Assembly: GCF_038006205.1 (NCBI RefSeq)
Contig: NZ_JBBOUU010000001.1
Coordinates: 2,482,001 to 2,546,000, forward strand
Reading direction: 5' to 3'
Source of the DNA: Solibacillus sp. FSL R7-0668
GTDB lineage: Bacteria > Bacillota > Bacilli > Bacillales_A > Planococcaceae
DNA: 64,000 nucleotides
In this document: positions 166 to 14,383 of the stretch, one piece after another
Layout of the letters: every line of letters begins with the position of its first letter
How positions within the stretch are numbered: the first letter of the stretch is position 1
The notes under the pieces: model-generated
Seen by the model: only the letters and a program-made list of their open reading frames with translations
Databases searched by the model: none
Told to the model about the DNA's origin: nothing
Made by a program: the position numbers and the translations under genes

Positions 166-209
166 TTTATTTTCCAAATAACTCACCAACTTTCCCTTGC
201 GTTAATTGC

Positions 210-509
210 TTATAAATCGCTTGATTTAACGAATACGCCATTGACCATTTGACCAGTGCGCCCCTTAATTTCGTCGTAAGCGCATTGCAAGCATTCATGT
301 AACGTTAGATTATTTTGTTGTGCAAGAATGATTAGTGTTACAACCACATCACCGATTCCATCTTTTAATGCATCTTTGTCATTGCGAGCCAATGCAGCTG
401 CAACCTCACCAACTTCCTCTGTTACTTTTAAAAATTGTTTACTGGAATCAGCTTGGTGTAAACCTTTCTCGATTGACCATTGCCCGACTTGTGATACTAA
501 TTTATCCAT
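210..509 (-). CDS. MazG-like nucleotide pyrophosphohydrolase
   Basis: This is a 99-residue all-alpha protein with the metal-binding signature of the MazG/dUTPase-like fold: EEVGE near residue 32 and GDVVVTL near residue 53. Such enzymes hydrolyse nucleoside triphosphates to monophosphates and are common in phage replication modules, where they are thought to adjust nucleotide pools. The start ATG shares its A with the stop of the upstream gene (TAATG overlap at 507-511), indicating translational coupling. The substrate cannot be read from the sequence. Confidence 0.75.
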   Translation of the reverse strand: MDKLVSQVGQWSIEKGLHQADSSKQFLKVTEEVGEVAAALARNDKDALKDGIGDVVVTLIILAQQNNLTLHECLQCAYDEIKGRTGQMVNGVFVKSSDL

Positions 510-862
510 TAACTTATTTCCTCCTCGTCATTTTCCAAGATTTCTAAGATCATGGCATTTTTACTATTTTCAACTTTTCGTTCATATGATGGTGTGCGCA
601 TAAATTTCAGCGCCCCCATCGTTTTACCTGTCTGTTCTGCGATATCTTCGAGGGAGCCAATTGCTAGCAAATTATCACCCTTGTATAATGCGTATTCGAC
701 ATTTTTATAACTTCGCTTTGGCATAACACTTTGAGTAGCTGCGCGTTTGTAATCCCATTTCAAAGATTTAACACGAACTAAAAATGTTGTTGTTGGTATG
801 CCGTTATTTTTAGCGATTGCAAGCCATTCATGGTGATTTCGATATTCCGCCAACTCTTTCAT
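509..862 (-). CDS. Phage protein with HTH-like N-terminus
   Basis: This 117-residue protein has an N-terminal stretch, EWLAIAKNNGIPTTTFLVRV, that reads like a helix-turn-helix, and basic residues after it. A second block, YALYKGDNLLAIGSLEDIAE, recurs in hypothetical proteins of Bacillus phages. The frame stays open up to a GTG at 877, but that GTG forms part of the GGAGGT ribosome site, so ATG 862 is taken as the start. DNA binding is inferred. No specific function is known to me. Confidence 0.6.
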   Translation of the reverse strand: MKELAEYRNHHEWLAIAKNNGIPTTTFLVRVKSLKWDYKRAATQSVMPKRSYKNVEYALYKGDNLLAIGSLEDIAEQTGKTMGALKFMRTPSYERKVENSKNAMILEILENDEEEIS

Positions 863-951
863 AGTCTCTACCTCCACAATTTTATTTACTACTCATAATG
901 TTCATTGTGTTTAATAGACCTAAGCTCGTACATCCAAGCGCATTGCTTTTA

Positions 952-1188
952 TTAATCGTTTTGATATACCGTTGGCATAGGCATCCATGCCAATACCTCA
1001 CTTACATCAGGTAACAAGATATTGCCAATCTCTCCAAAATGAAATGCATATCCCTCGGCATAAGGCATTTGTATATAATAAACAGGGTATCTTAATTCTA
1101 AACGACCTCTAATATGATCTTGTACCGTGCATATAATACATTCCCCGAGCGGTGGTGATTTTTCATTTATCGGTGTCCAATCATTCAT
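952..1188 (-). CDS. DUF551-like phage protein
   Basis: A 78-residue protein starts with a W-x-P motif (DWTPINEKSPP) and ends with a VLAWMPMPT motif, the two conserved ends of the DUF551 family of short phage and prophage proteins. An AAGGAAG ribosome site lies 7 bases before the ATG. The family has no established function. Its place in the early operon suggests an accessory role. Confidence 0.55.
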   Translation of the reverse strand: MNDWTPINEKSPPLGECIICTVQDHIRGRLELRYPVYYIQMPYAEGYAFHFGEIGNILLPDVSEVLAWMPMPTVYQND

Positions 1189-1217
1189 TTTTATTCTTCC
1201 TTTCTACGTATAATTGT

Positions 1218-1583
1218 TCAATATAATCCATTCAGTTCATACCAAAATTTAACCTCAACCTCTTTTTCTTGAATTAATCCGTACCGCTTGGCAACTTTAT
1301 ATTGCGTGGAATCGCGATTTAAACTAACCACATACCCAGCAATAATCTTTCTCCAGGATTCTAAAGGCATTGAATGCTTGTTAATATTACAAGATGCACA
1401 TGCTGGAACTAGATTGCCTTCGTTATCTCGCTCCGGGAAATGAGGTTTACCTGTAACTAAATTTCTCACTACTGGCTCGAAATGATCAGCATGCCAACCT
1501 TTTTCACCTAATTGACAACCGCAATACCAACAATGCCCGTTCGACTTGTCCCAAATTGCTTGTCTCTTTTTATTCATCGCCAT
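1218..1583 (-). CDS. HNH endonuclease
   Basis: This 121-residue protein has the zinc-stabilised HNH fold. CWYC (residues 18-21) and CASC (62-65) form two Cys pairs. HADH (31-34) gives the catalytic His, and NINKH (66-70) supplies the last Asn and His. ATG 1583 follows an AGGGGAGGTG site by 7 bases. HNH proteins of this size in phage early regions can be nicking enzymes, packaging-associated nucleases or homing enzymes. Its position among replication genes does not decide between these. Confidence 0.8.
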   Translation of the reverse strand: MAMNKKRQAIWDKSNGHCWYCGCQLGEKGWHADHFEPVVRNLVTGKPHFPERDNEGNLVPACASCNINKHSMPLESWRKIIAGYVVSLNRDSTQYKVAKRYGLIQEKEVEVKFWYELNGLY

Positions 1584-1635
1584 CCATTAGCACCTCCCCT
1601 TCCTACAAAAAATTGTTCTATAATGAACAAAATGC

Positions 1636-1839
1636 TTATTCTTCAACTTTAAAATAATCGTCAACGTCAATATCATCAACATCTGCATTACGACAAGCAT
1701 CTGACCAATCAATGGCTGCATCTAATATTTCATTTTGCTTTTTCCAACTTAAAGCTTCCCATTGTTCTTCGGTATAATTAACTGAAACAGAGTAATTTAC
1801 TTTTAAAGTAGCTGTACCTTCAACTTTGATTTTTGGCAT
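1636..1839 (-). CDS. Hypothetical phage protein
   Basis: A 67-residue protein preceded by AAAGGAG, spaced well from its ATG. It is acidic at the C-terminus (a run of Asp/Val around DVDDIDVDD) with a beta-rich N-terminus (KVEGTATLKVNYSVSVNY). I do not recognise a family. Its spacing and ribosome site support it as a real gene of the early operon. Confidence 0.5.
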   Translation of the reverse strand: MPKIKVEGTATLKVNYSVSVNYTEEQWEALSWKKQNEILDAAIDWSDACRNADVDDIDVDDYFKVEE

Positions 1840-1915
1840 CGTTAATTCTCCTTTACTTTGCTGAAAAGTTTATTAATTTGGACCGCAATTAAGCCGCTTG
1901 AGCCGCATTTTGGAC

Positions 1916-1957
1916 CGATAAAAATGGCTGCATGATAAAAAGTGCAGCCATTTTTAT
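1916..1957 (-). terminator. Rho-independent terminator after the phage helicase gene
   Basis: A stem made of AAAAATGGCTGCA and its complement TGCAGCCATTTTT encloses a 10-base loop and is followed on the minus strand by a T tract. It begins two bases after the helicase stop codon, so much of the leftward early transcript may end here. Confidence 0.75.
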
Positions 1958-1958
1958 C

Positions 1959-3536
1959 CTATCCTTTGTACTCAGCAGGATTAATCCCATCTGGAATGCG
2001 CCAACCGTTTGCGGCAATGCGGTCAATTAAACACTTAGCATTATCAAATGACCACGTTCCTACATGATTGAAGCCACGGCTTTCTAAGAAACGAATTTGT
2101 TTTGGTGTAGTAAGCCCTTGTTCACGACGCTTTTCAATGCGGTCTAATAATTTACTTGCTTTACCGGCATTATCAATTTGGTCAGGGAAAATGCCCATTT
2201 TCTCCAGCTTCTTAATTTGCTGATCGCTCGCTGGTCCCATTTCCCAACCAAATGAAGGAACGTAATTGGCTAAGTCTTCTGCTTGGATGCTCATTTCGAA
2301 TTGCAAAGGGTCTACTAAAGCACGTTTTCGCTTCTTCATTTCAGCTAGTTGCTTTGCTAATGCTTCCTCACGTTGAGCAACTGCATCTTCAGCAGCTTGT
2401 TGCTCGACAACTTCTAAATCTAAGGGGATGCCAGCTTCTTCAATTTGCTTCGTCATCAATTTAGCCACTTCATCATTTTGTGCAATTAAATGGGCAGGAT
2501 GACATAATTCATGGCGCTCTGTATGCCATAGGAAATCGAGCAATAATAAATCTTCTTTACCAGGATGTAACCGGGTACCACGCCCAACCATCTGGCTATA
2601 TAATGCTCGTACTTTTGTTGGTCGTAATACAACAACACAATCAACAGAAGGACAATCCCAGCCTTCAGTGAGTAGCATAGAATTACAAAGCACGTTATAT
2701 TTATCATTATCAAAATCTTCAAGTATTTCTGCACGGTCCTTGGATTCACCATTTACCTCAGCTGCACGGAAACCTTTTTGATTCAAAATTTCTGTGAACT
2801 TCTGGCTCGTCTTTACTAATGGAAGAAAGACGACAATTTTACGGTCTTTCGCAACTCGTATCATTTCATCTGCGATGGATTCTAGGTATGGATCTAGCGC
2901 TGAACCTAATTGACTTGTACTAAAATCACCTGCTTGCTGTCCGACTCCAGATAAATCTAATTTCAGTGGAATTGTTAGTGCCTTAATCGGACTTAAATAG
3001 CCACTTTTGATTGCCTTTGGTAAGGTGTACTCAAAAGCTAAACTTTCAAATACTGTACCTAAATTTTTCATATCGCCTCGGTCTGGTGTAGCTGTTACAC
3101 CTAGAACATTAGCTTGATCAAAATAATTCAATATGCGTTGATAGCTATCTGAAATACAATGATGAGCTTCGTCAATGATAATTGTGTCAAAGAAATCCTT
3201 TGGAAAGCGCTCTAATCGGCTTTCACGCATCATTGTCTGCACACTACCCACCACAACACGGAACCAACTGCCAATAGACGTTTCTTGTGCTTTTTCTGTA
3301 GCTGTTTTAAGTCCGGTTGATTTCTCTAACTTATCTGCTGCTTGCTCGAGTAACTCTCCTCGATGCGCCAATACAAGAACGCGCTCGCCTAATTTCACAC
3401 GATCTTCAATAACCTTACTAAATACGATAGTTTTACCACACCCAGTAGGTAGGACAAGGAGCGTCTTTTTGACGCCCTCTGCCCATTGTCCATGAATGGC
3501 TTCACGTGCCTCTTCTTGATAATCACGTAACTGCAT
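1959..3536 (-). CDS. Phage DEAD/DEAH-box superfamily II helicase
   Basis: This 525-residue ATPase unwinds or remodels DNA during phage replication. The SF2 motifs are in order: RDYQ (4-7), Walker A PTGCGKT (30-36), Walker B DEAH (122-125), SAT-like VTATPDR near 148 and motif VI GRGTRLHP near 315. The last third is charged and lacks a recognised domain. The protein resembles the ResIII-type helicases that occur beside DUF669 and RecA-like ATPase genes in phages of Firmicutes. The start is supported by AGGAGGT 5 bases upstream. The motifs are seen; the replication role is inferred from family and context. Confidence 0.85.
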   Translation of the reverse strand: MQLRDYQEEAREAIHGQWAEGVKKTLLVLPTGCGKTIVFSKVIEDRVKLGERVLVLAHRGELLEQAADKLEKSTGLKTATEKAQETSIGSWFRVVVGSVQTMMRESRLERFPKDFFDTIIIDEAHHCISDSYQRILNYFDQANVLGVTATPDRGDMKNLGTVFESLAFEYTLPKAIKSGYLSPIKALTIPLKLDLSGVGQQAGDFSTSQLGSALDPYLESIADEMIRVAKDRKIVVFLPLVKTSQKFTEILNQKGFRAAEVNGESKDRAEILEDFDNDKYNVLCNSMLLTEGWDCPSVDCVVVLRPTKVRALYSQMVGRGTRLHPGKEDLLLLDFLWHTERHELCHPAHLIAQNDEVAKLMTKQIEEAGIPLDLEVVEQQAAEDAVAQREEALAKQLAEMKKRKRALVDPLQFEMSIQAEDLANYVPSFGWEMGPASDQQIKKLEKMGIFPDQIDNAGKASKLLDRIEKRREQGLTTPKQIRFLESRGFNHVGTWSFDNAKCLIDRIAANGWRIPDGINPAEYKG

Positions 3537-3546
3537 AACCTACCTC

Positions 3547-4140
3547 CTAAAACTGTCCTGGTGTAAATCCGCCGCCACCTTGTTGTGGTGGATTTGTTGG
3601 AAATGGCTGTTGATACTGCTGTTGTTGCATTGGTTGTTGCTGATACTGCTGCTGAGGTGGCGCTTGCTGATATTGTGGAGACTGTTGCACTGGTTGTTGA
3701 GATGGCTGACCTTGACCTACCATGTCTTCAGCAGAATAAAACTTACCGACTTGATTGTTCGTTTTTTCTGTATTGTCTTTCCCCATATAACGATTGATTT
3801 CAAGCTTCAACCGTCCTTTTGCGCCGATGACAGCATTCCAATTCATGCGTAACTTCTCACCTTTTTTCTTTTGACCAATTCCTGCAAAGAAGTTAGAAAG
3901 TAATCCCTCTGTTTTTGTATGCAGGAATAAATTGTGAAAAATTGTAACGTCACCGTGCTCGGGTGAATGTACTGTCAGTTCTAATTTTGCTTGGTTACAA
4001 GCTGGCATTTTCACACTTCCTTGGAAGCGAGCACGTTCAAATTTAGCAACTGTAAAATCGTAATCTCCTTCAGGGAGCAGTATAAAGTCACTACCATCCT
4101 TTTCAATTTCGTCTTCCCAACCTAATTCGCGTTCATTCAT
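3547..4140 (-). CDS. DUF669 phage protein, probable ssDNA-binding partner
   Basis: This 197-residue protein has an N-terminal DUF669-type domain (about residues 1-140, with DFILLPEGDYDFTVAKFERA and a central FHNLFLHTK strand). A Gln/Pro-rich linker of about 45 residues follows, and the protein ends in GGFTPGQF. A globular domain, a flexible Q/P tail and an aromatic tip is the layout of single-stranded DNA-binding proteins. DUF669 genes regularly sit beside RecA-like recombinase genes, as here. ssDNA binding is inference. An AGGAGG site precedes the ATG. Confidence 0.7.
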   Translation of the reverse strand: MNERELGWEDEIEKDGSDFILLPEGDYDFTVAKFERARFQGSVKMPACNQAKLELTVHSPEHGDVTIFHNLFLHTKTEGLLSNFFAGIGQKKKGEKLRMNWNAVIGAKGRLKLEINRYMGKDNTEKTNNQVGKFYSAEDMVGQGQPSQQPVQQSPQYQQAPPQQQYQQQPMQQQQYQQPFPTNPPQQGGGGFTPGQF

Positions 4141-4164
4141 TTTTGTTTTCCTCCTAAAATTTTA

Positions 4165-5265
4165 TTAAAATGGTAGATTTGCTTCACGAAGCTCTAATAC
4201 CATTCCGTATACTTGCTGCCATGCAGCCACTAATACACCATCAATAAAGCCTGGATCATAATTCATGATTGGTGTGCCCATTGGGTAATAGCCTTTATTG
4301 CTAACCACCGCTTGAATCTCTGCTTCAGATACATTATTCGGAATCATTAAATCCTGTAATGCTTTTGGAATAGCTGGATTTAATTGCACCGGTTGTGGTT
4401 GCTGAACAGGTGGCTCCGATTGCGTTGGTGCTTGTTGTTCTGGAACCGGTTGTGGAACTGTTTGTTGTGGCTGCTCTACATGTACCGGTGGTAATGAAGA
4501 CCACGTTTGTGTTACTTGTGCCGGTTGTTGCTGTTGCACATTCACCTCAAAAATATGGGCAATTTGTGCATAATCTAATGGCAACTCATCTGGTAAACCA
4601 TGACGATTTTTAGCGTCCCAAGCTGGGTGATGCGTTGTATACATTGTGCGTGTACCACCTTGCGCTTTATGCTTGCGCCCTTTATCGTCTGTAGCCACGC
4701 TGTACGTTTTGTAATTAATGAAAAGAACCATATCAGCCCATTCTTTTACTAGTGATGATGTACGTGCTGACGTCTTTTTACCGAGCTTCAATTCGTAACG
4801 ATCATACGCGCCCATTTCGTCGGGCTGCTCAAATTTACGAATTTGTGCGTGAGCAGTTAAAACGATGTTAATACCTTGGTCTACGATGTCTTGTAATAAG
4901 TTAAGGAAGCGGCCCATTTCCTCTTCTAATTTGATATAACCCGAACCATAGCCGAAATCTTCAATACTTGTTTTTTGATTGATATTACAAATATGTTCAA
5001 TTGCCATGCGTTCCGCCCAATCGACTGTATCAATTACTAAAGTTTTAAATGGTCGATTTTGCTTTACGTAATCAAGCTGTTGCAACATAAACGACCAACT
5101 TGTCGGCTTGTCAAATCGAGCTACATCCATATTTCCAGTACTACCTTCAGTATCGATAAAGCCAGGTTCCGGAAATTGAGCCGCTAATGAGGATTTTCCA
5201 ATACCCTCAGGCCCGTATAAAACAACTTTTTGCGCAGTGGCAACTTTACCTCGCGTAATATTCAT
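4165..5265 (-). CDS. Sak4-like RecA-fold ATPase (phage recombination)
   Basis: This 366-residue protein has Walker A GPEGIGKS (18-25), a Walker B strand in TLVIDTVDWAE near residue 78, and a third conserved segment NIVLTAHAQ near 155, as in the RecA/Rad51-like Sak4 single-strand annealing ATPases. After about residue 250 it has a Q/P-rich linker and ends in LREANLPF, which resembles an SSB tail. It lies between the DUF669 gene and an SMC-like ATPase gene with 15-25 bp gaps, suggesting a recombination module. The Sak4 assignment rests on motif layout and neighbours. Confidence 0.7.
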   Translation of the reverse strand: MNITRGKVATAQKVVLYGPEGIGKSSLAAQFPEPGFIDTEGSTGNMDVARFDKPTSWSFMLQQLDYVKQNRPFKTLVIDTVDWAERMAIEHICNINQKTSIEDFGYGSGYIKLEEEMGRFLNLLQDIVDQGINIVLTAHAQIRKFEQPDEMGAYDRYELKLGKKTSARTSSLVKEWADMVLFINYKTYSVATDDKGRKHKAQGGTRTMYTTHHPAWDAKNRHGLPDELPLDYAQIAHIFEVNVQQQQPAQVTQTWSSLPPVHVEQPQQTVPQPVPEQQAPTQSEPPVQQPQPVQLNPAIPKALQDLMIPNNVSEAEIQAVVSNKGYYPMGTPIMNYDPGFIDGVLVAAWQQVYGMVLELREANLPF

Positions 5266-5279
5266 TGATAATCCTCCTT

Positions 5280-6599
5280 TTAAAATTCACCTGGTGTCCA
5301 TTTAGGTGATTCTATAACTGGTGCTTGTTGCATTGGCTCAGTGAATGCTGTGCTATTTTGACCAGCTACATAGCCATCTTCAATAATGATGCTGCATTCT
5401 TCCCCAGTGCTTACACGTGTTGCGATTGCTTGTAAGCCCTCTTGCTCCAGCCATTGACCAAACTCCTGTAATGTCGCCATATCCATTTGCTCAAGCTTGT
5501 CCAATAAAATGAAGCCACAATCCGGCTTGAGCTTACGGACAATTGCTGTCGATACTTTTAACTGTTCTGCGCCCGACATGTTATCCCAACGTTGGCCGTT
5601 ATAAAGAAGATCACCTTCAGCAACTGATAATCCTGGTAGTGGTAAATCTGCATTACTTAAAAGTTCTGACTTTTGGTGTCGTACTTCCTCAATACTTGCC
5701 GTTAATAAGTCGTACTGCTTTACGTACTCTTGCGCATCCATTTCAGCTTTATCTTTATCAAGATTTGCACGTACACGACGATTAATCTCATCGTTTTCTT
5801 GGATATTTGCTTCAAGTTCTTCCGTTGATTCATCAAATAAATCGAGCGCTGTTTTTTTAGCAATCTCCAAATCTTGTGCCGTCTTCGATAGAGCCATTTC
5901 AGCATTAGCCAACTGTTGCTTTAATCGTTCAACCTCCTGCGCCTGGAACGTATACTGACGTTCGTAATTTGCAAGTTGCTCACGTTTACGTTGATTTTCA
6001 CCGTTGCGGGCTAGAATTGCCTGTTGTTGCTGAAGCAATTCAGAAATAGAAACAGGCTCTTTCGGTACATCTGGAAAATACGGCTGCTCTAGTGCGAATT
6101 TTTTCTTTTGGTCGGCAATACGTCCAATAGCGAGACGCTCGTTATAGAACTCTTTTTCCTGTTGTTCTAATTGATGTAATTGCTGACCTACACCAATAAT
6201 TTGAAGGAGAATATTCGCCTTTTCTTTGCTTGTAGAATTCATAAATTTAGGTAAATTAATGGCCAACTCTTCTACGAAACTATCAAGGAGCTGTTGACCA
6301 GCCTTTTGTCCATTTGGATCCGTAACTTTTAAATCTGAATTCTTACCTTTACGCTCGACGATTAAGCCATTCGATAACGTAATTTGTAAATTTGGCGGAA
6401 TGAGAGAACCTTCACGCGTTGCCTGTGATGGCTTATATTTATTGCCGCCTAGCGCCCATGCGATTGCATCTAACACACTTGTTTTCCCTTGGCCATTATT
6501 ACCACCAACAATCGTTAACCCGTTTTGTGTTGGCTCAATTTTTACAGCTTTTACACGCTTCACGTTTTCGATTTGAAGCTTATTAATCTTAATTGTCAT
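5280..6599 (-). CDS. SMC/RecF-like AAA ATPase of phage
   Basis: This 439-residue protein has Walker A GGNNGQGKTS (32-41) in an N-terminal head. A long coiled-coil region rich in Gln, Glu and Lys (about 140-300) follows. The C-terminal head carries an ABC signature-like MSGAEQ and a Walker B strand GFILLDKLEQMD. The residue after the Walker B Asp is Lys rather than the usual Glu. Such half-size SMC/RecN-like ATPases are thought to act in recombination or DNA end processing. The C-terminus, PKWTPGEF, echoes the tip of the DUF669 protein. The start overlaps the upstream stop (TAATG). Confidence 0.75.
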   Translation of the reverse strand: MTIKINKLQIENVKRVKAVKIEPTQNGLTIVGGNNGQGKTSVLDAIAWALGGNKYKPSQATREGSLIPPNLQITLSNGLIVERKGKNSDLKVTDPNGQKAGQQLLDSFVEELAINLPKFMNSTSKEKANILLQIIGVGQQLHQLEQQEKEFYNERLAIGRIADQKKKFALEQPYFPDVPKEPVSISELLQQQQAILARNGENQRKREQLANYERQYTFQAQEVERLKQQLANAEMALSKTAQDLEIAKKTALDLFDESTEELEANIQENDEINRRVRANLDKDKAEMDAQEYVKQYDLLTASIEEVRHQKSELLSNADLPLPGLSVAEGDLLYNGQRWDNMSGAEQLKVSTAIVRKLKPDCGFILLDKLEQMDMATLQEFGQWLEQEGLQAIATRVSTGEECSIIIEDGYVAGQNSTAFTEPMQQAPVIESPKWTPGEF

Positions 6600-6778
6600 T
6601 ATTGTCCTCCTCGTATTTTTAACCCCTGTCGTGCTAAGGCATGAATTTTTTCATAAGTAGGATTGAAGCTAGTCAATCCATTAGTAATCGACTCAATTTC
6701 TTTCAAAGTATCTAACAATTCAATGAGTCTACTTTTTGGAATCGTTACAGTTTCAACTTCTTTTTCAGCCATTGTCAT
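6599..6778 (-). CDS. Hypothetical small phage protein
   Basis: A protein of 59 residues that is mostly helical (SRLIELLDTLKEIESI). The GTG at 6784 belongs to the ribosome site AGAGGTG, so the start is ATG 6778 or the in-frame ATG 6772. The spacing is 5 or 11 bases. Its stop codon overlaps the ATG of the SMC-like ATPase gene, so the two are probably translationally coupled. No family recognised. Confidence 0.5.
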   Translation of the reverse strand: MTMAEKEVETVTIPKSRLIELLDTLKEIESITNGLTSFNPTYEKIHALARQGLKIRGGQ

Positions 6779-6824
6779 TAACACCTCTTTTCGTGGTATA
6801 ATGGCTTTGAAATTTGTTATTTTG

Positions 6825-6863
6825 AGAGCCTAAACCGGTGCAACGGTAAGGGCTCTTATTTTT
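6825..6863. other. Inverted repeat, possible weak terminator
   Basis: AGAGCC (6825-6830) pairs with GGCTCT (6851-6856), with partial pairing of CTAAACC and GGTAAG inside. On the plus strand it is followed by TTATTTTTG. On the minus strand, where the phage genes run, no T tract follows. It lies directly after the stop of the next upstream gene. Its role is unclear. Confidence 0.35.
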
Positions 6864-7158
6864 GTTGTAGGGCTCGGCGTGCGATAAATCCACCGTCCGC
6901 ATGTACTGATGAACGTGCATGCATATCAACTACAAAATGATTGTTTTCATTTGCATAAAACTGAAGCGCTTCACGTAATACATTGTTTTGGAAGCTTAAA
7001 TCATAAATTTTTGCTAACGCTTGAAAAATGCTACTCTTATGAATTTGTTCAATTTCTGCATGCAATCTATTAAGCTCCTCATTGACGATATGAAACAATA
7101 CTTCATCAACGCGCTCGCCCTTTTCCTTGTACTCGTTAAGCGCTGTACGTGCATCCAT
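6856..7158 (-). CDS. Hypothetical phage protein
   Basis: This 100-residue helical protein ends in LREALQFYANENNH and DGGFIARRAL. This pairing of a helix with a Gly-Gly-x-x-Ala-Arg-x-Ala-Leu tail occurs in many short uncharacterised phage proteins. It begins one base after the stop of the small upstream gene (7159-7287), so translation is likely coupled. No function can be given. Confidence 0.55.
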   Translation of the reverse strand: MDARTALNEYKEKGERVDEVLFHIVNEELNRLHAEIEQIHKSSIFQALAKIYDLSFQNNVLREALQFYANENNHFVVDMHARSSVHADGGFIARRALQQK

Positions 7159-7287
7159 TCACTTCACCTCGATTCCGATAAGACCTAATTGAAAATCACG
7201 GACAAACTGATGGAATTCCCACCCTTTACTTATAAAACCGTTATCAACAAATACATCCCCTAGCCAATCCAGTAACGCGTCATTCAT
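7159..7287 (-). CDS. Small hypothetical phage protein, 42 aa
   Basis: ATG 7287 is preceded by GTGAGGTGAT with good spacing, and the 42-codon frame (starting MNDALLDWLGDVFVDNGFIS) ends at TGA 7161-7159, immediately before the next start. It is short but has a clear ribosome site and tight packing with both neighbours, which supports expression. No family recognised. Confidence 0.55.
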   Translation of the reverse strand: MNDALLDWLGDVFVDNGFISKGWEFHQFVRDFQLGLIGIEVK

Positions 7288-7296
7288 AAAATCACC

Positions 7297-7554
7297 TCAC
7301 TTAATTAATTTGATAGCGCGTGCAATCGCCTCGGCCTCGTGAGGACTTTTCACATTATCCACAAGCTCTTTTAATACATTAATCACTTCCTGCTTTTCCG
7401 TGTCCGGTTGATATTTTTGCAGAACGATTTGGTTGTCATTGATGAAAATTTCTAAACCGTCCTTTTCTGCAATTCCCAAATTACGGCGTAATTCGATTGG
7501 TAAAACCACACGTCCTAGCTCGTCAACTTTGCGTACGATACCTGTTGATTTCAT
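7297..7554 (-). CDS. AbrB/SpoVT-family transcriptional regulator
   Basis: An 85-residue protein whose first 50 residues match the swapped-hairpin AbrB DNA-binding domain: TGIVRKVDELGRVVLPIELR, then GLEIFINDNQIVLQKY. AbrB-like proteins bind DNA as dimers or tetramers and act as transition-state or phage regulators. The C-terminal 35 residues are helical and may mediate multimerisation. It overlaps the upstream gene by 4 bases. Its targets are unknown. Confidence 0.85.
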   Translation of the reverse strand: MKSTGIVRKVDELGRVVLPIELRRNLGIAEKDGLEIFINDNQIVLQKYQPDTEKQEVINVLKELVDNVKSPHEAEAIARAIKLIK

Positions 7555-7763
7555 TGTTTTCTCTCCTTTTTTATTTTTATTGGTTCAGGTAAAATCGTTG
7601 AACCTAACGCTCCCTTTGAAACTTTCAAATTACACTTTTTGTACAAGTATGAAGGGAACTTTCCGTTTAATACCCTAATGCATTCTGCACGACTACCACT
7701 TGCATAGACAGTTTGAGTTTCTTGTCCAATTGCATGAAACACCTCGTTAACCACCTTTACCAA
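7551..7763 (-). CDS. Hypothetical phage protein
   Basis: This frame of about 70 codons has a beta/alpha start (KVVNEVFHAIGQETQTVYAS) and a basic C-terminus (KIKKERKQ). The TTG at 7763 has no ribosome site but overlaps the upstream stop and could be used by re-initiation. A GTG at 7742 has AAAGGTGG 8 bases upstream and is the alternative. No family recognised. Confidence 0.5.
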   Translation of the reverse strand: MVKVVNEVFHAIGQETQTVYASGSRAECIRVLNGKFPSYLYKKCNLKVSKGALGSTILPEPIKIKKERKQ

Positions 7764-8011
7764 TTTTTATTAAGGTTTTTATAAAAATCATATAAACCGC
7801 GTTTGCGTAAATCGAACACTTTTGTACGAATGGTATGTTCTGTTTTTCCGATAGCAAATGATATTGTCCTAATTTCATCAATTTCATAAAATTTGCAAAT
7901 GTACTCTAAATCAGATTCGGTAAATGACTTACCATGTGAAAAATGAAAGTCTGGATGAAATTGCATGCGACCGAATCTGTCATAAGTGATATCTTGGTCG
8001 ATTACTTCCAT
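7757..8011 (-). CDS. Hypothetical phage protein with HTH-like segment
   Basis: An 84-residue protein. Residues 30-75 (LEYICKFYEIDEIRTISFAI, then GKTEHTIRTKVFDLRKRG) read as a helix-turn-helix similar to short DNA-binding proteins of Bacillus phages. An AAGGGGTG site lies upstream of ATG 8011. DNA binding is inferred from pattern only. Confidence 0.5.
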   Translation of the reverse strand: MEVIDQDITYDRFGRMQFHPDFHFSHGKSFTESDLEYICKFYEIDEIRTISFAIGKTEHTIRTKVFDLRKRGLYDFYKNLNKNW

Positions 8012-8021
8012 AAATCCACAT

Positions 8022-8228
8022 TCACCCCTTTGTCAGCTGCATAAACAGATCCTTATTGCCTGTTACTAACGACTGATCAATTAAATGTTGACGGTTAGCT
8101 TCTTCCATTTCAGCCACCAACTTAACAGTATCTGGGGCTAAAAATATGCCGTCTTCTTCCACATAGCCGTGATATTCTACTGCAATAGTTCGTACTGTTG
8201 ATAAAATGAAAGCCTTAAATGAATCCAT
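8022..8228 (-). CDS. Hypothetical phage protein
   Basis: A 68-residue, mostly helical protein with a good GAGGA site 6 bases before ATG 8228. It packs closely with both neighbours. No domain recognised. Confidence 0.45.
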   Translation of the reverse strand: MDSFKAFILSTVRTIAVEYHGYVEEDGIFLAPDTVKLVAEMEEANRQHLIDQSLVTGNKDLFMQLTKG

Positions 8229-8230
8229 GT

Positions 8231-8422
8231 TTAATCCTCGCTTTCCTCATAAATTTTCACTTCAAGGTCAAACTCTGGATTTTCAACTTCAAGCTCGTCT
8301 GCAATAATTTCTTCGACTTCACTTACTGGACGTAGTTGGCCTTTGTAGTAAATTTCTTGCTCTTCGCAAGCAGCGAGTAAAGCCGTTAAACTTGCTACTA
8401 AAATAAGCGTGCTTTTCTTCAC
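8231..8422 (-). CDS. Small phage-encoded lipoprotein
   Basis: The 63-residue product has a basic N-terminus, a hydrophobic stretch and the lipobox LLAAC (Cys 19), followed by an acidic domain of about 44 residues that includes a VEEIIADELEVENPEF segment. It should be lipid-anchored outside the membrane. The start is GTG 8422 with AGGGGGTG 7 bases upstream. Small lipoproteins in temperate phages can block superinfection (for example Ltp of phage TP-J34), but here that is only a hypothesis. In that phage the gene is in the lysogeny module, whereas this one is in the early operon. Confidence 0.7.
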   Translation of the reverse strand: MKKSTLILVASLTALLAACEEQEIYYKGQLRPVSEVEEIIADELEVENPEFDLEVKIYEESED

Positions 8423-8428
8423 TTAATT

Positions 8429-8626
8429 TCACCCCCTCTCGGCATTAATGCCATCAATTTTTACATTAAGAGCTAACAACGCGTAACGTATGCCCGCTTG
8501 CATACCCTCTTGGTAACCTTCCCAATGTGATGACGGGGCTTTTTGGTGATATAGCTTAACCAGGGCATCAATTAACACTGGATCGTGCTCAACTGAAGCT
8601 TGCCCCTCAACTTCGAAATGAATCAT
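8429..8626 (-). CDS. Hypothetical phage protein
   Basis: The frame extends upstream to 8773, but that part overlaps two other well-supported small genes. ATG 8626 gives 65 residues starting MIHFEVEGQASVEHD. The ATG overlaps the previous stop as ATGA, which favours this start. The product is helical with the segment SSHWEGYQEGMQAGIRYAL. Function unknown. Confidence 0.5.
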   Translation of the reverse strand: MIHFEVEGQASVEHDPVLIDALVKLYHQKAPSSHWEGYQEGMQAGIRYALLALNVKIDGINAERG

Positions 8627-8730
8627 CTTTCTTTCACCACACTTTTCATTGCATCTGGAACGTATTCCATTAATAACTTGACCCGTTCGTCCGCTGACAT
8701 GCTGCGCCATTGGTTTAAGTTGATTTTCAA
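8623..8730 (-). CDS. Very small hypothetical phage protein, 35 aa
   Basis: TTG 8730 is preceded by AAAGGGGG and overlaps the upstream stop as TTGA. Its own stop overlaps the next start as ATGA. The product starts MKINLNQWRSMSADERVKLL and is helical. The two 4-base overlaps with neighbours are the main evidence that this short frame is translated. Confidence 0.5.
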   Translation of the reverse strand: MKINLNQWRSMSADERVKLLMEYVPDAMKSVVKER

Positions 8731-8909
8731 CTGATTGCCCCCTTTTTGAGCAATGAAATTCCTTGGGCTTCAAGCTTCGCGATGATAAGCTCTAACTCCT
8801 CATTCAACTTCATTGCGTAATCTGCACCGAAATGTTGTTCGTTCTTATTTAACATGACTTTTAAATAAGTACTTAATTGCATATTTTCCTCAAGTGTGAA
8901 GTTACTCAT
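8727..8909 (-). CDS. Hypothetical phage protein
   Basis: The open frame reaches 9017, but ATG 8909 has a GGGGAG site 8 bases upstream and gives a 60-residue product (MSNFTLEENMQLSTYLKVML...). The region above it overlaps the preceding gene in another frame. The protein is helical, with no recognised family. Confidence 0.5.
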   Translation of the reverse strand: MSNFTLEENMQLSTYLKVMLNKNEQHFGADYAMKLNEELELIIAKLEAQGISLLKKGAIS

Positions 8910-9093
8910 ATGCTTTACTCCCCAATCCGTCATGCACCGCTGCCCACAATTCTCGCAAATTCTTTTTACCATCACCCCACTCACGTAAGAGCTGCATTGC
9001 CAACGATTCGTTAACACGTGATAGTTCTGATAATTTTTCCGGCAAGAACGCGCGCATTTTAACCAGTTCCATATTGATGGTTTTTTCTAGCAT
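8902..9093 (-). CDS. Hypothetical phage protein, first gene of the leftward early operon
   Basis: A 63-residue helical protein with an AAGGAG site 8 bases before ATG 9093. About 90 bases separate it from the Cro-like regulator gene. It is therefore the first gene after that regulator and overlaps the next by 8 bases. No family recognised. Confidence 0.5.
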   Translation of the reverse strand: MLEKTINMELVKMRAFLPEKLSELSRVNESLAMQLLREWGDGKKNLRELWAAVHDGLGSKAYE

Positions 9094-9185
9094 GAAAATT
9101 GCTCCTTTCCTTTTGATGCATGCAAGGTATTTCTAGTCCATTTCCTTGCGCCCCGTTGATGGGAATGATGTAAAGACACTTTTGA

Positions 9186-9425
9186 TTAAATCGTGCATGT
9201 TAATTCGTTAAAACTACAGAATTTCTGTACTTGACCCGCAAAAAAAATAATACTATCAAATGGGACATTAACATTTTTGGCAAATTCATATCCCTGATCC
9301 ATGCGTAAAATTCGTCGATACTTTTCATATTGAATATACGTTTTTTCTGACATGTTCATTTTCTCTGCCATTTCAATTTGAGTTAAACCTGCTAAAATTC
9401 TAGCTTGCTCCAATGTATATCGCAT
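9186..9425 (-). CDS. XRE-family Cro-like regulator of the prophage
   Basis: A 79-residue protein with an N-terminal helix-turn-helix (about 5-55): TLEQARILAGLTQIEMAEKM, then SEKTYIQYEKYRR. It is divergent from the LexA-like repressor gene and starts after AGGAGGTGAG. This layout is that of a Cro-type switch protein. Its 3' end contains an exact copy of the operator found upstream of its own start (9213-9229), so the end of the gene also appears to carry a control site. Confidence 0.8.
   Translation of the reverse strand: MRYTLEQARILAGLTQIEMAEKMNMSEKTYIQYEKYRRILRMDQGYEFAKNVNVPFDSIIFFAGQVQKFCSFNELTCTI
9213..9229. promoter_or_regulatory. Intragenic copy of prophage operator
   Basis: The 17-base sequence ACTACAGAATTTCTGTA is identical to the operator at 9452-9468 but lies inside the last codons of the Cro-like gene. 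It is upstream of the leftward early operon that starts at 9093. It could be a second repressor site acting on that operon. Confidence 0.55.
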
Positions 9426-9451
9426 AGTAGCTCACCTCCTGAAAATAGAAT

Positions 9452-9560
9452 ACTACAGAATTTCTGTAGTTACAAGTGATAAAAACAGATAATCTGTATT
9501 TTTAAAAGTATTTGAATCAAAAGTTTCAGTTTTACTGTACAAAATTACAGATTAACTGTA
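9452..9560. promoter_or_regulatory. Divergent switch region with repeated palindromic operators
   Basis: Three palindromes lie between the divergent regulator genes: ACTACAGAATTTCTGTAGT (9452-9470), ACAGATAATCTGT (9485-9497) and TACAGATTAACTGTA (9546-9560). They share half-sites ACAG/CTGT with 5-base centres. A further CTGT...ACAG arrangement falls at about 9535-9550. This is the expected layout of a phage lysis-lysogeny operator. The assignment of each site to one of the two regulators cannot be made here. Confidence 0.75.
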
Positions 9561-9589
9561 CAATGAAAATATAAGGAGGTGAAATCATT

Positions 9590-10204
9590 TTGAGTGTTGG
9601 ACAAAAAATAAAGGCCTTAAGAAAAGAAAAAGGGCTTACGCAGAGTGAACTAGCCAATAAACTTAATGTAGTATCTACCGCTGTATCAGCATGGGAGAGA
9701 GATGCAAATAAACCAATGATGGATAAACTAACGATAATGTCAGAATTGTTTAATGTTCCAATTTCACATTTCTTTGATGTAGAGATTCCATCAAACATAA
9801 TCCCTTTACAACCAAACATAGTACAAGTTCCTATCATTGGGAAAATAGCCTGCGGAGATCCGATCACTGCTGTGCAAAACATTGAAGGATATACTTATGA
9901 GTTTGCTGATTTTCTGCCTAAAGGTGAAATTTTCGCTTTAATCGCTAAAGGTGACAGTATGGAACCTACTATTGCAAACGGATCTAAGGTACTTGTAAGG
10001 GCACAATCAGATGTAGAAAATGGTGAATTGGCAGCCGTATTAGTAAACGGTGATGAGGAAGCAACTTTAAAGAGAGTGAAGAAACAGGGCGACACCATAT
10101 TACTAATGCCCGACAACCCAGCCCATGAGCCGATTGTTGTCACTGAAAGTAATCCAGCACGAATCATAGGAAAAATAGTAAGAGCAATAATGGATTTTGA
10201 TTAA
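9590..10204 (+). CDS. LexA-like (CI-type) prophage repressor with S24 peptidase domain
   Basis: This 204-residue protein has an N-terminal HTH (about 5-60, with GLTQSELANKLNVVSTAVSA) and a C-terminal self-cleavage domain. The cleavage site is Cys88-Gly89 in IACGDP. The catalytic Ser is 123 in GDSMEP and the Lys is 161 in ATLKRV. RecA-stimulated autoproteolysis would inactivate it during DNA damage and induce the phage. The start is TTG 9590 with AAGGAGGTGA upstream. All catalytic residues are present, so the repressor looks functional. Confidence 0.9.
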   Translation: MSVGQKIKALRKEKGLTQSELANKLNVVSTAVSAWERDANKPMMDKLTIMSELFNVPISHFFDVEIPSNIIPLQPNIVQVPIIGKIACGDPITAVQNIEGYTYEFADFLPKGEIFALIAKGDSMEPTIANGSKVLVRAQSDVENGELAAVLVNGDEEATLKRVKKQGDTILLMPDNPAHEPIVVTESNPARIIGKIVRAIMDFD

Positions 10205-10227
10205 TTAGCGCTAATCAATCAAACACG

Positions 10228-10259
10228 AAAAAGAGCTGGCCCATTTGCCGCTCTTTTTT
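10228..10259 (+). terminator. Terminator after the repressor gene
   Basis: AAAAAGAGC pairs with GCTCTTTTT around a 13-base loop and ends in a T run. It separates the repressor from the integrase gene. Confidence 0.7.
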
Positions 10260-10285
10260 ACTACTAAAATGAAAGGAGAATACAA

Positions 10286-12184
10286 ATGGCTCAGGAAATC
10301 AAAGCAAGAAACGTATTGTGTGTAGCGATTTACATTCGCGTATCCACTAAAGGCCAAGAAGACAAATACAGTTTAGCTGCACAAGAACACGAATTGACAC
10401 TTTATGCAAAATCGCAAAAATGGACAATAGTAAAGATATTTAAAGATGTAGATAGTGGAGCTAAATTTGATAAAAAAGGGCTCAACGCTTTACTGGATTG
10501 TGTAGACGATGGACTTGTGGATATTGTACTTGTAGCTGACCAAGACCGCCTATCTCGCTTGGACACAATAGACTGGGAAATTCTAAAAGATGCACTTCGC
10601 GAAAATAAGGTTAAAATTGCCGAACCTGGAACAATCATTAACTTAGAAAATGAAGATGATGAATTTCTATCGGATTTGAAAAATATTCTTGCGAAGCGTG
10701 AACGAAGAAAAATCAGACGGCGATATATGCGTGGTTTACGTCAATATGTACGTGAAGGTGGAATCTATGGACGTATCCCCTATGAATATCTTTACAATAA
10801 GCAAACGAAAGAGTTATCGATAAATGAGCAATTTGCGTGGGTTATACCATTCATTGACGATTTATTTTTACAAGGTTTCGGGACATCCAGCATTGCAACA
10901 GAGTTAAATAAAATTTCACGCACACCTGGTGGCGCCAAATGGCATGCTAATACGGTTTATCAAAGGTTGCGTAATCCTGCTTATTGCGGTGATTACAGTG
11001 TGACTTTCTCAAATGGCGAAACAATTGTTAATAAAGAAAAATATCCGCAGTTGCGAACAGTAGAAACGTTTGAACGTATAAAATACTTGATTGAAACCAA
11101 TACAAAACCATTTCCCACAACTCGCAAAAACCATCACCCATTGGCGAGACTGCACATCACATGCGCTGAGTGTGGACGCAAAATAGCATTACAACAAGGT
11201 GAGAAATCCCAGTACGGTGGCTATCGATGGTATTTAGCACATAATTTCGGACTAGCAACTCCATGTCCATTAGACCAAAAGTATAATGCTGTACGTATTA
11301 CGCGTCCGCTTGTATTAGCTGTTAAAAATATTTTATTAAGTGAGGACACAGCGAAAAATTATCTTGATATTGAATTTAAAGACGAATCACAAATCGCTCT
11401 GCTCGAGCAAAAAATATTAAATTTGCAAAAAATGATAAGTGATAATAACGGTAAAATCGACAAGTTGCTGGATTTATATTTAGATACTAAGTTAACGAAA
11501 GATAAATACGAAGAAAAAGTAAATTCGATAGAAACTGAAAACAAAAGTTTAAAAGTTAATTATGATGAGATAAATACAAAAATCGAATTGATGAAGGCAG
11601 AAAAATATAGCTATGATGCTCTAATTGAAAATTTAGCTGTAGTAGAAGAGCACCTTTCGACTATCCATCGAATCGATACCGAATACAGCGAGAAAGATAA
11701 AGAAGATTTGATTGCAGCGTTATTTGAAAACGCGCTTCTTTCACCTGCAGATAATACGATTACTTTTAAATTCACTACGTTTAATAATTTTCCTATCGAT
11801 TTAACGGTTGCCATCGATGAAACGAATCAGGAATATGAAGAACGTTTATTACAACAGCAAAAAGAACGCTACAATTCCACACAAGCGATTTTGGATGCCC
11901 AGCCTACCCCAATTAGCTTTATGGAGTTAAAACGTCTTACTGGATTAAATGCACAGACATTACGGTTAGATGAAGAACGCTTTGGAACATATCGAAATAT
12001 GAAATTAGGTAAAGGCAGCCCTGAAAGAAAAGCCGAAATTGTAAAAGGTATTAAAAGGCTGATTTCAAAGAATCCAAACATAACGAGCTTAGATATTGCG
12101 AAGGAATTAGGTAGTTCTCAAGGAACAATTCTAAAATATATTAAAGAGAACAATTTGCGCGAAGGTAGACAACGCAAGGGTTAA
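10286..12184 (+). CDS. Large serine recombinase (prophage integrase)
   Basis: This 632-residue recombinase integrates and excises the prophage. The resolvase domain (about 12-155) has the nucleophile Ser20 in IRVSTKGQ. The recombinase domain follows (about 165-290), then a zinc-binding region with Cys pairs in TCAECG and CPLD, and a coiled-coil segment (about 370-450). The last 100 residues contain a helix-turn-helix (SLDIAKELGSSQGTILKYIK), an extra domain beyond the minimal layout. It starts after AAGGAG and ends about 60 bases before the interrupted comGC, as expected for an integrase beside its attachment site. Confidence 0.95.
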   Translation: MAQEIKARNVLCVAIYIRVSTKGQEDKYSLAAQEHELTLYAKSQKWTIVKIFKDVDSGAKFDKKGLNALLDCVDDGLVDIVLVADQDRLSRLDTIDWEILKDALRENKVKIAEPGTIINLENEDDEFLSDLKNILAKRERRKIRRRYMRGLRQYVREGGIYGRIPYEYLYNKQTKELSINEQFAWVIPFIDDLFLQGFGTSSIATELNKISRTPGGAKWHANTVYQRLRNPAYCGDYSVTFSNGETIVNKEKYPQLRTVETFERIKYLIETNTKPFPTTRKNHHPLARLHITCAECGRKIALQQGEKSQYGGYRWYLAHNFGLATPCPLDQKYNAVRITRPLVLAVKNILLSEDTAKNYLDIEFKDESQIALLEQKILNLQKMISDNNGKIDKLLDLYLDTKLTKDKYEEKVNSIETENKSLKVNYDEINTKIELMKAEKYSYDALIENLAVVEEHLSTIHRIDTEYSEKDKEDLIAALFENALLSPADNTITFKFTTFNNFPIDLTVAIDETNQEYEERLLQQQKERYNSTQAILDAQPTPISFMELKRLTGLNAQTLRLDEERFGTYRNMKLGKGSPERKAEIVKGIKRLISKNPNITSLDIAKELGSSQGTILKYIKENNLREGRQRKG

Positions 12185-12212
12185 GGGCGTATCATGCGCC
12201 CTAACACTCATT

Positions 12213-12262
12213 GATATGATAAATGTTTTAAATTTATATATTCTCAACGGATATGATAAAAA
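12213..12262. other. Prophage-host junction (attachment site) in comGC
   Basis: Host comGC codons are readable down to about 12,249 on the minus strand. Beyond that the sequence no longer fits ComGC. The 11-mer GATATGATAAA occurs at 12213-12223 on the phage side and again at 12250-12260 on the host side. The crossover dinucleotide cannot be fixed without the other prophage end, which is outside the window. Confidence 0.7.
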
Positions 12263-12308
12263 GTACCACCAACATCTCTACTAAAGTAAATCCATTTTCG
12301 TTTTTCAT
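12234..12308 (-). pseudogene. comGC: comGC 5' fragment, interrupted by the prophage
   Basis: Downstream of comGB, after GAGGTG, ATG 12308 opens a frame reading MKNENGFTLVEMLVVLFIIS and then VENI and a stop. The first 20 residues are the prepilin signal and hydrophobic helix of ComGC, the major competence pseudopilin (processing site between Gly and Phe). The normal protein is about 100 residues. The remaining codons should lie at the far end of the prophage. While the phage is inserted, pseudopilus assembly and DNA uptake should fail. Confidence 0.85.
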
Positions 12309-12321
12309 GATTTTCACCTCG

Positions 12322-13398
12322 TCAAATAAATTCAATTACATCATACATTGGTAATAAAATGCTTAAATAGGCAGCGATTACACATACAGCAATGATTAAA
12401 AATAACAAAGGCTGAATGATGGCTAATGATTTGGCAATAATGCTTTCTAATTTTTCGTCTAGCAAATCACAATATAAAACAAGCTCCCTCCCCAACAAGC
12501 CACTAGCTTCACCATGTGCAATAAAATGCTCGAATTTCGGATAAAAATAACCCACGATTTGGACTGCATTGGCTAAAGTATCACCAAATATAAGCCGCTG
12601 CTGTAAGATGTGCGCAATATAGGCAATCTGCTCTTGGTGCTGCTGTGATTTTAATTGCTCGAATGCCTGTTGCAAAGACAGGCCCGCCAACAATAAGTTT
12701 CCAAGATTTCTCGAAAACTGCCGCGTTAAAACCAATCGCCAAAATAAACTAAGAAAAGGGATTCGAAATAATAAATTTAGTTGTAAATCCACACGCTTCT
12801 TTTTTACATAAAGAGCAAAACCGAGCAAGGAAAAGATTATGACCATACTAAAAATCACAATGAAATCAGGGATGTGTAAGAAAAATGTAGACCACTCGAT
12901 GCTTGTTGTTGCGGTTTCAGTAGCTCTAGAGGAAATGACTGAGGACATATTCGGTAAGAAATACGTACGAAATGCTAGAAATAGCAGCACCAAAAATCCA
13001 AACAATATTAAAGGATAAGTTAAAACTTTCAAGAGCTTGGCCTTTGCTTGCTGTTGAAAGGTGAGCTGCTTGGCCACAATGTGAATCGTTTCATTTAATT
13101 GACCCGAAACTTCAGCTAGCTCGATCGAAATCAAATATTGCTTATTAAGGCCCAGAAATGTGAATACTTGCGTCACACTCCCACCACTCGTCAAGATTGC
13201 CTTTACTTGCTGTTGAACGGGCTCATAATGTTTGATGTGGTATGGCAGTAACATTTCAATACTATGCGCAAAGGTGTAGCCCTCGTTTAATAATGTTGCC
13301 GTGCGTTCTAATAATGTTGGAAATTCATGTGCCTTTATAATCGGTCTCGTGAATAGTTCACGCTTCCAAATCGATTCTTTAGCTAGAGGTATATTCAT
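12322..13398 (-). CDS. comGB: ComGB, competence pseudopilus assembly membrane protein
   Basis: This 358-residue GspF/PilC-type protein is the membrane platform for the competence pseudopilus. It has two T2SF-like repeats (about 25-150 and 225-345) and membrane helices near 125-145, 175-200 and 330-352. A conserved HGEASGLLGREL segment lies near residue 293. It is full length, overlaps the end of comGA by 20 bases and has AGGAGGG before its ATG. It appears intact even though the next gene is broken. Confidence 0.9.
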   Translation of the reverse strand: MNIPLAKESIWKRELFTRPIIKAHEFPTLLERTATLLNEGYTFAHSIEMLLPYHIKHYEPVQQQVKAILTSGGSVTQVFTFLGLNKQYLISIELAEVSGQLNETIHIVAKQLTFQQQAKAKLLKVLTYPLILFGFLVLLFLAFRTYFLPNMSSVISSRATETATTSIEWSTFFLHIPDFIVIFSMVIIFSLLGFALYVKKKRVDLQLNLLFRIPFLSLFWRLVLTRQFSRNLGNLLLAGLSLQQAFEQLKSQQHQEQIAYIAHILQQRLIFGDTLANAVQIVGYFYPKFEHFIAHGEASGLLGRELVLYCDLLDEKLESIIAKSLAIIQPLLFLIIAVCVIAAYLSILLPMYDVIEFI

Positions 13399-14383
13399 AG
13401 CGCCCTCCTGACAATTTATTCTTTTGCCCTAGAAGTGTAGCCTCTGTGGATAATTGATAAGCCGCATTATTTCGGATGGCTTCAAACACATCGTCCAAGT
13501 CCTGACCATGCAGCAACTCGAATAACGCCTTATATTCCCCACCCTGCTCCACTAATGTTTGACAAATAACCGCGCGCATCATTTGACGCATTTCCTCATA
13601 AGAAACAGATAAATCATGTAAGCGATATAAGCAATTAATGCTATCCTTCGCGTGAATTGTTGAGATGACTAAATGACCCGTAAAGGCGGATTCAATCGCA
13701 ATCTTCGCCGTTTCCTTATCGCGTATTTCACCAATCATCAATACTTGTGGCGAATGACGTAACACCGCTTTTAATGAGGCCGCATACGTGACACCTGCCC
13801 TTTCATTCACTTGAATTTGAAGTAGCTCCGGTTGGACACTTTCAACCGGGTCCTCAATCGTGATGACATGGCGATTTAGCTGATTCGCGCAATAATGTAG
13901 CAAGGAATATAATGTCGTTGTTTTACCACTGCCTGTCGCACCACTTATTAGGATCAGACCACTGTCCTGCTGTACAAAACGCTCTAGCAGCTGTGCGCTT
14001 TCTTGAAAATGGCATAAATCCTGTAAGGGGATGGCATGGTTCTGCTTTAAAATTCGAATGGCGAGGCTTTCTTTTAAGTAGGCGGATGGCAAGGATGAGA
14101 TTCTAAAGGAGTAATGAAAATCATGGAATTGTTTTTGAAAGGCGCCACTTTGAGGTTTGCGCTTTTCACTAATATCGAGTGCAGATAAAAATTTAAAATA
14201 AGAAATCATACGGATGGAAAGCTCGCTTGGACTTTCTCGTATTTTTTGAAAGTGACCATATTTGCGAAACATAATTTGATAATGGTCTTCTTTGGGCAGT
14301 AAATGTATGTCTGAGGCTTGAAAATCAATGGCTTGCTGAATGAGCTCAATGCACTTTTGTTCAATAATTGCTTCTTGTTCGAT
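13379..14383 (-). CDS. comGA: ComGA, competence pilus ATPase, with uncertain start codon
   Basis: This traffic ATPase powers pseudopilus assembly. Walker A is GATGSGKTTT, the Asp box is ITIEDPVE and Walker B is VLMIGEIRD, followed by the His box STIHAKD. The first ATG in frame (14272) would delete the conserved N-terminal segment ASDIHLLPKEDHYQ, which lies upstream. That frame is open to a TGA at 14390-14392 but contains no ATG, GTG or TTG there. An ATC at 14383 and a GGAGG at 14396-14400 are the nearest candidates. The Cys motif present in B. subtilis ComGA is absent. The end given here (14383) is provisional. Confidence 0.8.
   Translation of the reverse strand: MEQEAIIEQKCIELIQQAIDFQASDIHLLPKEDHYQIMFRKYGHFQKIRESPSELSIRMISYFKFLSALDISEKRKPQSGAFQKQFHDFHYSFRISSLPSAYLKESLAIRILKQNHAIPLQDLCHFQESAQLLERFVQQDSGLILISGATGSGKTTTLYSLLHYCANQLNRHVITIEDPVESVQPELLQIQVNERAGVTYAASLKAVLRHSPQVLMIGEIRDKETAKIAIESAFTGHLVISTIHAKDSINCLYRLHDLSVSYEEMRQMMRAVICQTLVEQGGEYKALFELLHGQDLDDVFEAIRNNAAYQLSTEATLLGQKNKLSGGRYEYTSS

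Follow-up and report, generated by a model that had tools for sequence, protein, structure and literature searches.

A temperate phage integrated in the pseudopilin gene comGC of a Solibacillus strain, and recurrent interruption of comGC by unrelated elements in the same bacterial family

The pseudopilin gene comGC of Solibacillus sp. FSL R7-0668 (genome G000, contig C1) is split by a prophage of 41,340 bp. Taken as a whole, the evidence makes it very probable that a temperate siphophage entered codon 21 of comGC by means of its own large serine recombinase (LSR), that the DNA-uptake pseudopilus was lost as a result and that this loss is of advantage to the element. The prophage itself is ordinary, a fresh example of the comGC/comYC prophages already published, and the repeated use of comGC by unrelated recombinases within the family is of more interest than this single case. 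The window, as we call the whole stretch of 64,000 nucleotides that was analysed (C1:2482001-2546000), holds the right-hand part of the element and the upstream part of the interrupted operon (Table 1).

Table 1. Features of the window, in window coordinates
Feature	Position	Strand	Remarks
Prophage, right-hand part of 41,340 bp	1..12248		remainder extends left of the window to G000:C1:2452908
Phage helicase	1959..3536	-	domain and PHROG matches
Sak4-like single-strand annealing protein	4165..5265	-	PHROG match
Small transcriptional regulator	9186..9425	-	matches to regulator and repressor PHROGs
CI-like repressor with S24 peptidase domain	9590..10204	+	domain and PHROG matches
LSR, 632 aa	10286..12184	+	Resolvase and Recombinase domains, additional C-terminal HTH_24 match
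Hairpin (GGGCG..CGCCC) between integrase stop and comGC	12185..12201		folding, z -4.3
GTT common to both junctions	12246..12248	-	holds the recombination dinucleotide, probably GT
5' fragment of comGC, codons 1-20 (MKNENGFTLVEMLVVLFIIS)	12249..12308	-	prepilin signal and start of membrane helix
comGB, open	12322..13398	-	upstream in operon order
comGA, open	13379..14383	-	82% identity to congener G002

Results

comGC lies in two parts flanking one element

The minus-strand translation of window positions 12308-12213 reads MKNENGFTLVEMLVVLFIISVENI up to a stop codon. ComGC proteins of congeners have a similar N terminus and continue ILILITIPNVSKHF... or nearly so, and that of G015 reads past the break point uninterrupted (MKNEKGFTLVEMLVVLFIISILILITIPNVSKHF...); the resemblance of the window's comGC to its congeners stops past residue 20 (S, to 12249), right before the GTT. 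The remainder of the gene falls outside the window but on the same contig (G000:C1:2452672-2452914, minus strand), contains no stop codon and encodes a stretch with 69% identity to ComGC of G015 (residues 19-99). Read in the comG sense, the two junctions are ...TTTATCATATCC, GTT, GAGAATATATAAATTT... and ...TATAAATTTACT, GTT, TTAATATTGATCACG..., with identity at the crossover confined to GTT, within which the recombination dinucleotide is probably GT. The two GTT cores are 41,340 bp apart, and joining the comGC halves across them yields FIIS-V-LILITIPN, in frame. A 27-base junction probe, allowing up to 3 mismatches, had a single match in the window and no match in any of 100 shuffled sequences.

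These results bear out part of the sequence-only reading, which had described comGC as readable for 20 residues on the minus strand before running into phage DNA beside a large serine integrase (here supported by the translation, the comparison with congeners and the LSR domains), had placed a prophage inside the gene (both junctions were read, and the phage gene set is full) and had proposed looking for the rest of comGC at the far prophage end, where it was indeed found, in frame. A second intact comGC elsewhere would have refuted that reading; a genome-wide search of G000 found none, the other matches being to comGD (at 2452451) and, weakly, to a place at C1:44260. The comparison it had proposed with relatives lacking the phage gave an unsplit comGC, and thus the empty site, in all 15 congeners compared. 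Two parts of comGC flanking one element is the arrangement by which prophages in comGC/comYC are recognised.

At the far end, the comGC remainder is fused to a TTG-started ORF of 104 aa (MKCFRRKTYKFTVLILITIPN...). Restoration of the pilin signal by phage DNA at this place was considered and rejected: the fused ORF has no GFTLxE motif, and a repaired pilin is therefore not to be expected in G000. The phage side supplies no such motif in G028 and G124 either, two further genomes with a split comGC described below.

The element carries a complete-looking siphophage gene set

PHROG families were matched by 28 of 30 prophage ORFs (8/10, 10/10 and 10/10 per batch). They include genes for the head (small and large terminase, portal, minor head, scaffold, major head and neck proteins), the tail (tail terminator, major tail, tail chaperone, tape measure, Dit and a tail/tail-fibre type protein) and lysis (holin and endolysin/amidase), together with a primase, a helicase, Sak4, an HNH nuclease, a CI-type repressor, a small regulator and the LSR. 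With structural, lysis and lysogeny genes all present, the element is a prophage and, as judged from its gene content, its gene set is that of a complete-looking siphophage. The small regulator may be Cro-like, judging by its position. Among the phage records matching the portal protein and the LSR, none (0 of 425 and 0 of 412, respectively) reached at least 60% identity.

A tyrosine-type integrase gene is present at the prophage end opposite the LSR (G000:C1:2453364-2454362, minus strand; L035:5365-6363), and the G099 element, introduced below, contains no match to it. Elsewhere in G000, two ORFs of 416 aa with identical first 45 residues lie 200 kb apart (C1:2623842-2625092 and 2423948-2425198); they are perhaps a transposase.

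The remaining competence genes are open

In G000, comGD, comGE, comGF and comGG are open and similar to those of G002, and comEA, comEB and comEC are open with their Pfam domains. Judged by reading frames, comGC is the sole broken gene among the comG and comE genes. The clean junctions, the in-frame remainder and the otherwise open comG and comE operons support a true site-specific insertion.

As a separate observation, comGA (window 14383-14381, minus strand) has no ATG, GTG or TTG at the expected start; in the window, G002 and G015 (L002, L003), the conserved frame starts near ATC or ATA, after a stop and a purine-rich stretch resembling a ribosome site. Perhaps comGA uses a rare start codon.

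Hairpins occur at both ends of the element. The one next to the integrase (Table 1) is terminator-like by folding only and is absent from the terminator consensus scan. At the far end, a strong hairpin (2452958-2452982, z -4.2) separates the comGC remainder from the last phage gene, and was missed by the consensus scan, as its loop of 9 exceeds the limit of 8. The same scan placed a terminator-like site further up, and its same-strand promoter-like matches all precede the last phage gene. Given this hairpin and the position of the promoter-like matches, read-through from the phage into comGD-GG is probably weak.

The LSR and its relatives at comGC and other sites

The 632-aa protein combines a Resolvase catalytic domain with a Recombinase domain and falls within the size range of LSRs (about 450-700 aa). 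Integration by serine recombinases leaves two or three shared bases, and the junction identities found here are likewise very short (GTT in G000, GT in G099). Since the core is short and relatives of the LSR sit at comGC, we infer that the LSR, and not the tyrosine-type integrase, carried out the integration in G000.

Relatives of the LSR were found at E <= 1e-60 in 10 of 261 family genomes, G000 included; the sample of the order-level search was the same 261 genomes. In four of them (G000, G099, G028 and G124), the LSR adjoins comGB and comGC is cut. The LSR of G099 is 80% identical to that of G000 and likewise occupies codon 21, with GT shared by its junctions and the comGC remainder 55 kb off, and in G028 and G124 comGC is cut at about codon 11. 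In G229, the cut is in comGA, past its Walker A region, with the remaining part of that gene situated before comGB, about 39 kb away. The relatives in G203, G208 and G238 adjoin a helicase gene that we take to be yprA-like, and a second LSR copy in G028 is situated elsewhere. G202 and G248 make up the remainder of the ten genomes. A 13-row tree, with 8 members of the window's LSR family and 5 of the 6 members of a second LSR family, gave 100/100 support to each of four groups: the LSRs at codon 21, the two at codon 11, the pair from G229 and G203, and the second family.

In IMG/VR, 4 of 7 loci carry an LSR with 79-80% identity. One of these contigs (L073) continues beyond the LSR gene and has the same comGC junction as G000; the three others end at the end of the gene, so that their site is not readable. 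The named sources of LSR relatives are Lysinibacillus, Sporosarcina and Rummeliibacillus and, more distantly, Bacillus and others. A scan of a genome collection with the integrase gave a single distant match. The LSRs at comGC are natural enzymes whose attB sites, all within a single gene, are known.

Interruption of comGC across the family

A profile of 11 ComGC proteins was searched against the 261 family genomes (E <= 1e-6) and matched 258, with no match at this threshold in G067, G068 and G185. The gene was full-length or nearly so in 233 genomes, interrupted in 20 and without a match in 3, while 5 contaminated, incomplete or fragmented genomes (G063, G070, G072, G241 and G251) were left unchecked; comGC is therefore interrupted in 20 of the 253 genomes judged to have it. 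For the unsplit class, 150 of the 233 genomes come from the listed profile rows, a number obtained by subtraction from the per-genome table. Seven of the listed rows that were flagged because of a stop or an unusual frame length were read closely (G148, G075, G277, G190, G186, G146 and G236), and all seven proved full-length.

Apart from one unexplained case, the interruptions trace to four systems of integration that are unrelated to each other: two LSR families, a tyrosine integrase and a Tn7-like transposon. The LSR family of the window accounts for 4 of the 20. Six others carry the second LSR family (about 555-590 aa), at codons of about 46-50 and in elements of 10-30 kb. At E <= 1e-80, this family occurs in 6 of the 261 genomes, all six with a split comGC; the enzyme stands directly before the comGC remainder in 4 of the 6, its copy in G154 has one stop within the matched stretch, and phage-type genes were recognised by eye in the elements of G134 and G023. 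A further 8 interruptions belong to one genus, where 49-58 kb separate comGB from the comGC remainder and both junctions hold ATGATGATC within the GFTLIEMM codons. These elements have tail and lysis-like phage genes by eye and, at the comGB end, an integrase of about 384-407 aa, for which Pfam Phage_integrase was tested in one of the 8; seven look alike by eye, and G211 has two shorter ORFs there. In G156, comGC holds at about codon 39 a Tn7-like element (L125/L126, G156:C1:2178152-2204447) with GATGA at both ends and TnsB-, TnsC- and TnsD/TniQ-type proteins. In the unexplained case, G248, just the first 49 comGC codons were found.

Some other observations accompany the survey. Certain cargo ORFs of the Tn7-like element resemble by eye a type I restriction system. 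In G136, a decayed second comGC fragment (L130; C2:210064-210231; profile positions 17-72) lies on the opposite strand, at a distance of about 6.5 kb from the intact gene. In the congener G007, comGB is split at contig ends (L066/L067; end of C8, and C28) with similar terminal sequence, and looks as if cut by an insertion sequence; this case and the comGA interruption of G229 are chance finds from outside the comGC survey.

The control gene was gcvT, which is longer than comGC (380 aa) and belongs to the same chromosomal neighbourhood. It was matched in 255 of the 261 genomes, 6 being without a match, and 254 of the best E-values were about 1e-144 or better. A sign of a break was seen in 1 of 255 (G153, three matches, best 2.7e-64), with rows listed for about 150 genomes and the rest judged by best E-value, so that breaks near the gcvT ends could be missed. 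The comparison of 20/253 for comGC with 1/255 for gcvT gives a Fisher p of 7e-6, a value that ignores kinship, uses a single control gene and overstates the evidence because related genomes are not independent.

Discussion

Consequences for the lysogen

With the prepilin-signal half and the pilin-body half of comGC 41 kb apart, it is reasonable to infer that a cell whose comGC was entered at codon 21 by this phage would produce no functional ComGC pilin. It would also make little ComGD-GG, since these genes lie beyond the phage and behind the hairpin, and without ComGC and with little of the others the pseudopilus for DNA uptake could not be built. The benefit of blocked uptake would fall to the element, because transformation could swap it for an empty site. 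By analogy with published cases, loss of transformation would be the likeliest effect of the G000 prophage; excision leaves comGC in frame, which makes the loss reversible in principle.

Why comGC is a recurrent target

Elements of four systems sit in one gene of about 110 codons, the Tn7-like one with its own TnsD-type target selector. To judge by the genomic pattern, this recurrence of unrelated elements speaks for selection on them to block transformation, though it is no proof. We regard as evenly balanced the proposition that comGC has evolved into a place where such elements converge in this family, since disabling transformation prevents their curing. The family pattern, with many species genomes, several unrelated recombinases and defined sites, offers a countable test of the idea, set out in passages of PMC4774983, that by disabling transformation mobile elements escape removal.

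A neutral choice of site, in which the conserved codons of the GFTLxEM peptide attract integrases, comGC loss is harmless and transformation is not selected against, appears to us possible but rather doubtful. Integrases of wide range would find a good attachment site in the first comGC codons for their conservation alone, with no transformation-related gain, and different integrases do converge on the GFTLxEM codons, both here and in the published passages. The LSR clade of the window is, moreover, not devoted to competence genes, with three relatives at the yprA-like helicase gene and one elsewhere. Against a neutral choice, the second LSR family and the Tn7-like element are inserted at later codons (about 46-50 and about 39), a relative of the window's LSR has comGA as its site, signs of a break in gcvT are confined to 1 of 255 genomes, and cases in comGA, comFA, comK, ssbB and comM are described in passages among PMC4774983, PMC7029219 and PMC12637031.

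Another reading is a reversible switch, in which the phage would exit under competence conditions and restore comGC. The model is the active lysogeny of the Listeria comK prophage, where the gene is in frame on excision and regulated excision has been shown. In G000, too, both junctions keep the reading frame across the crossover, and the LSR and the phage modules look complete. Frame restoration is no special sign of a switch, because excision repairs the target after site-specific integration of any kind. The analysis saw nothing that ties the phage to competence regulation, and the published comYC/comGC cases of streptococci and macrococci, which are nearer precedents than Listeria, are interpreted, in the passages cited here, as loss of transformation. 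We therefore consider such a switch improbable. A dead prophage remnant or an assembly artefact at a contig join is scarcely credible and was set aside, as both element ends lie within one 3,988,176-bp contig, the phage modules are complete, the four IMG/VR viral contigs carry 79-80% identical LSRs and nothing was found in favour.

Comparison with known systems

Disruption of comGC by a site-specific phage, with probable loss of transformation, is the reading we prefer and has precedents, cited here from passages of each source. Prophages in comYC are described in S. pneumoniae, S. mutans, S. parauberis and L. lactis, in comFA in the B. cereus group and in comK in Listeria (PMC4774983), with the argument that elements breaking competence genes thereby escape removal by transformation. 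In pneumococcus, 44.1% of genomes have insertions expected to inhibit transformation (PMC12637031). Judged by title, the literature searched held nothing on comGC elements in Planococcaceae, the matches being the two Macrococcus papers discussed below and one on the evolution of ComEC; no paper joining Tn7-like elements and comGC was found.

The comYC (= comGC) prophages of pneumococci and other streptococci resemble that of G000 in being temperate phages that split comGC. The PPH100 group also has a serine integrase (481 aa), located in comGC with the core ACCAACATCTCCACCAA (PMC8637289); read on the opposite strand, this core gives LVEMLV in our translation (codons 9-14), as against codon 21 in G000, and the host is another. 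In group B Streptococcus, prophages between ComGB and ComGD target ComGC with a serine integrase (PMC11357604), and thus share enzyme class and target with G000 but differ in host and in the printed att TAAATTTTTC. Macrococcus phiMC1 and its relatives split comGC in what was termed negative lysogenic conversion (PMC6008420, PMC12016501). The att of phiMC1, CATTTCAATTAAAGT, translates in our hands to TLIEM, which is the site of G028 and G124, adjoins that of the eight tyrosine-integrase elements and is not that of G000. Taken together, the PPH100 core and the phiMC1 att place both published sites where comGC is cut at codon 11 in the family, and not at codon 21.

In Staphylococcus pseudintermedius, the SpST71A prophage lies in comGA after 509 bp (PMC7029219). 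As in the window, a prophage breaks the comG operon, but the target is comGA, and SpST71A is closer to G229, which is cut about 501 nt into the open comGA frame of G002 (positions compared without alignment). The Listeria comK prophage and that of G000 both reside in a competence gene that is in frame on excision; the former targets a regulator, whereas the latter targets the pseudopilin gene.
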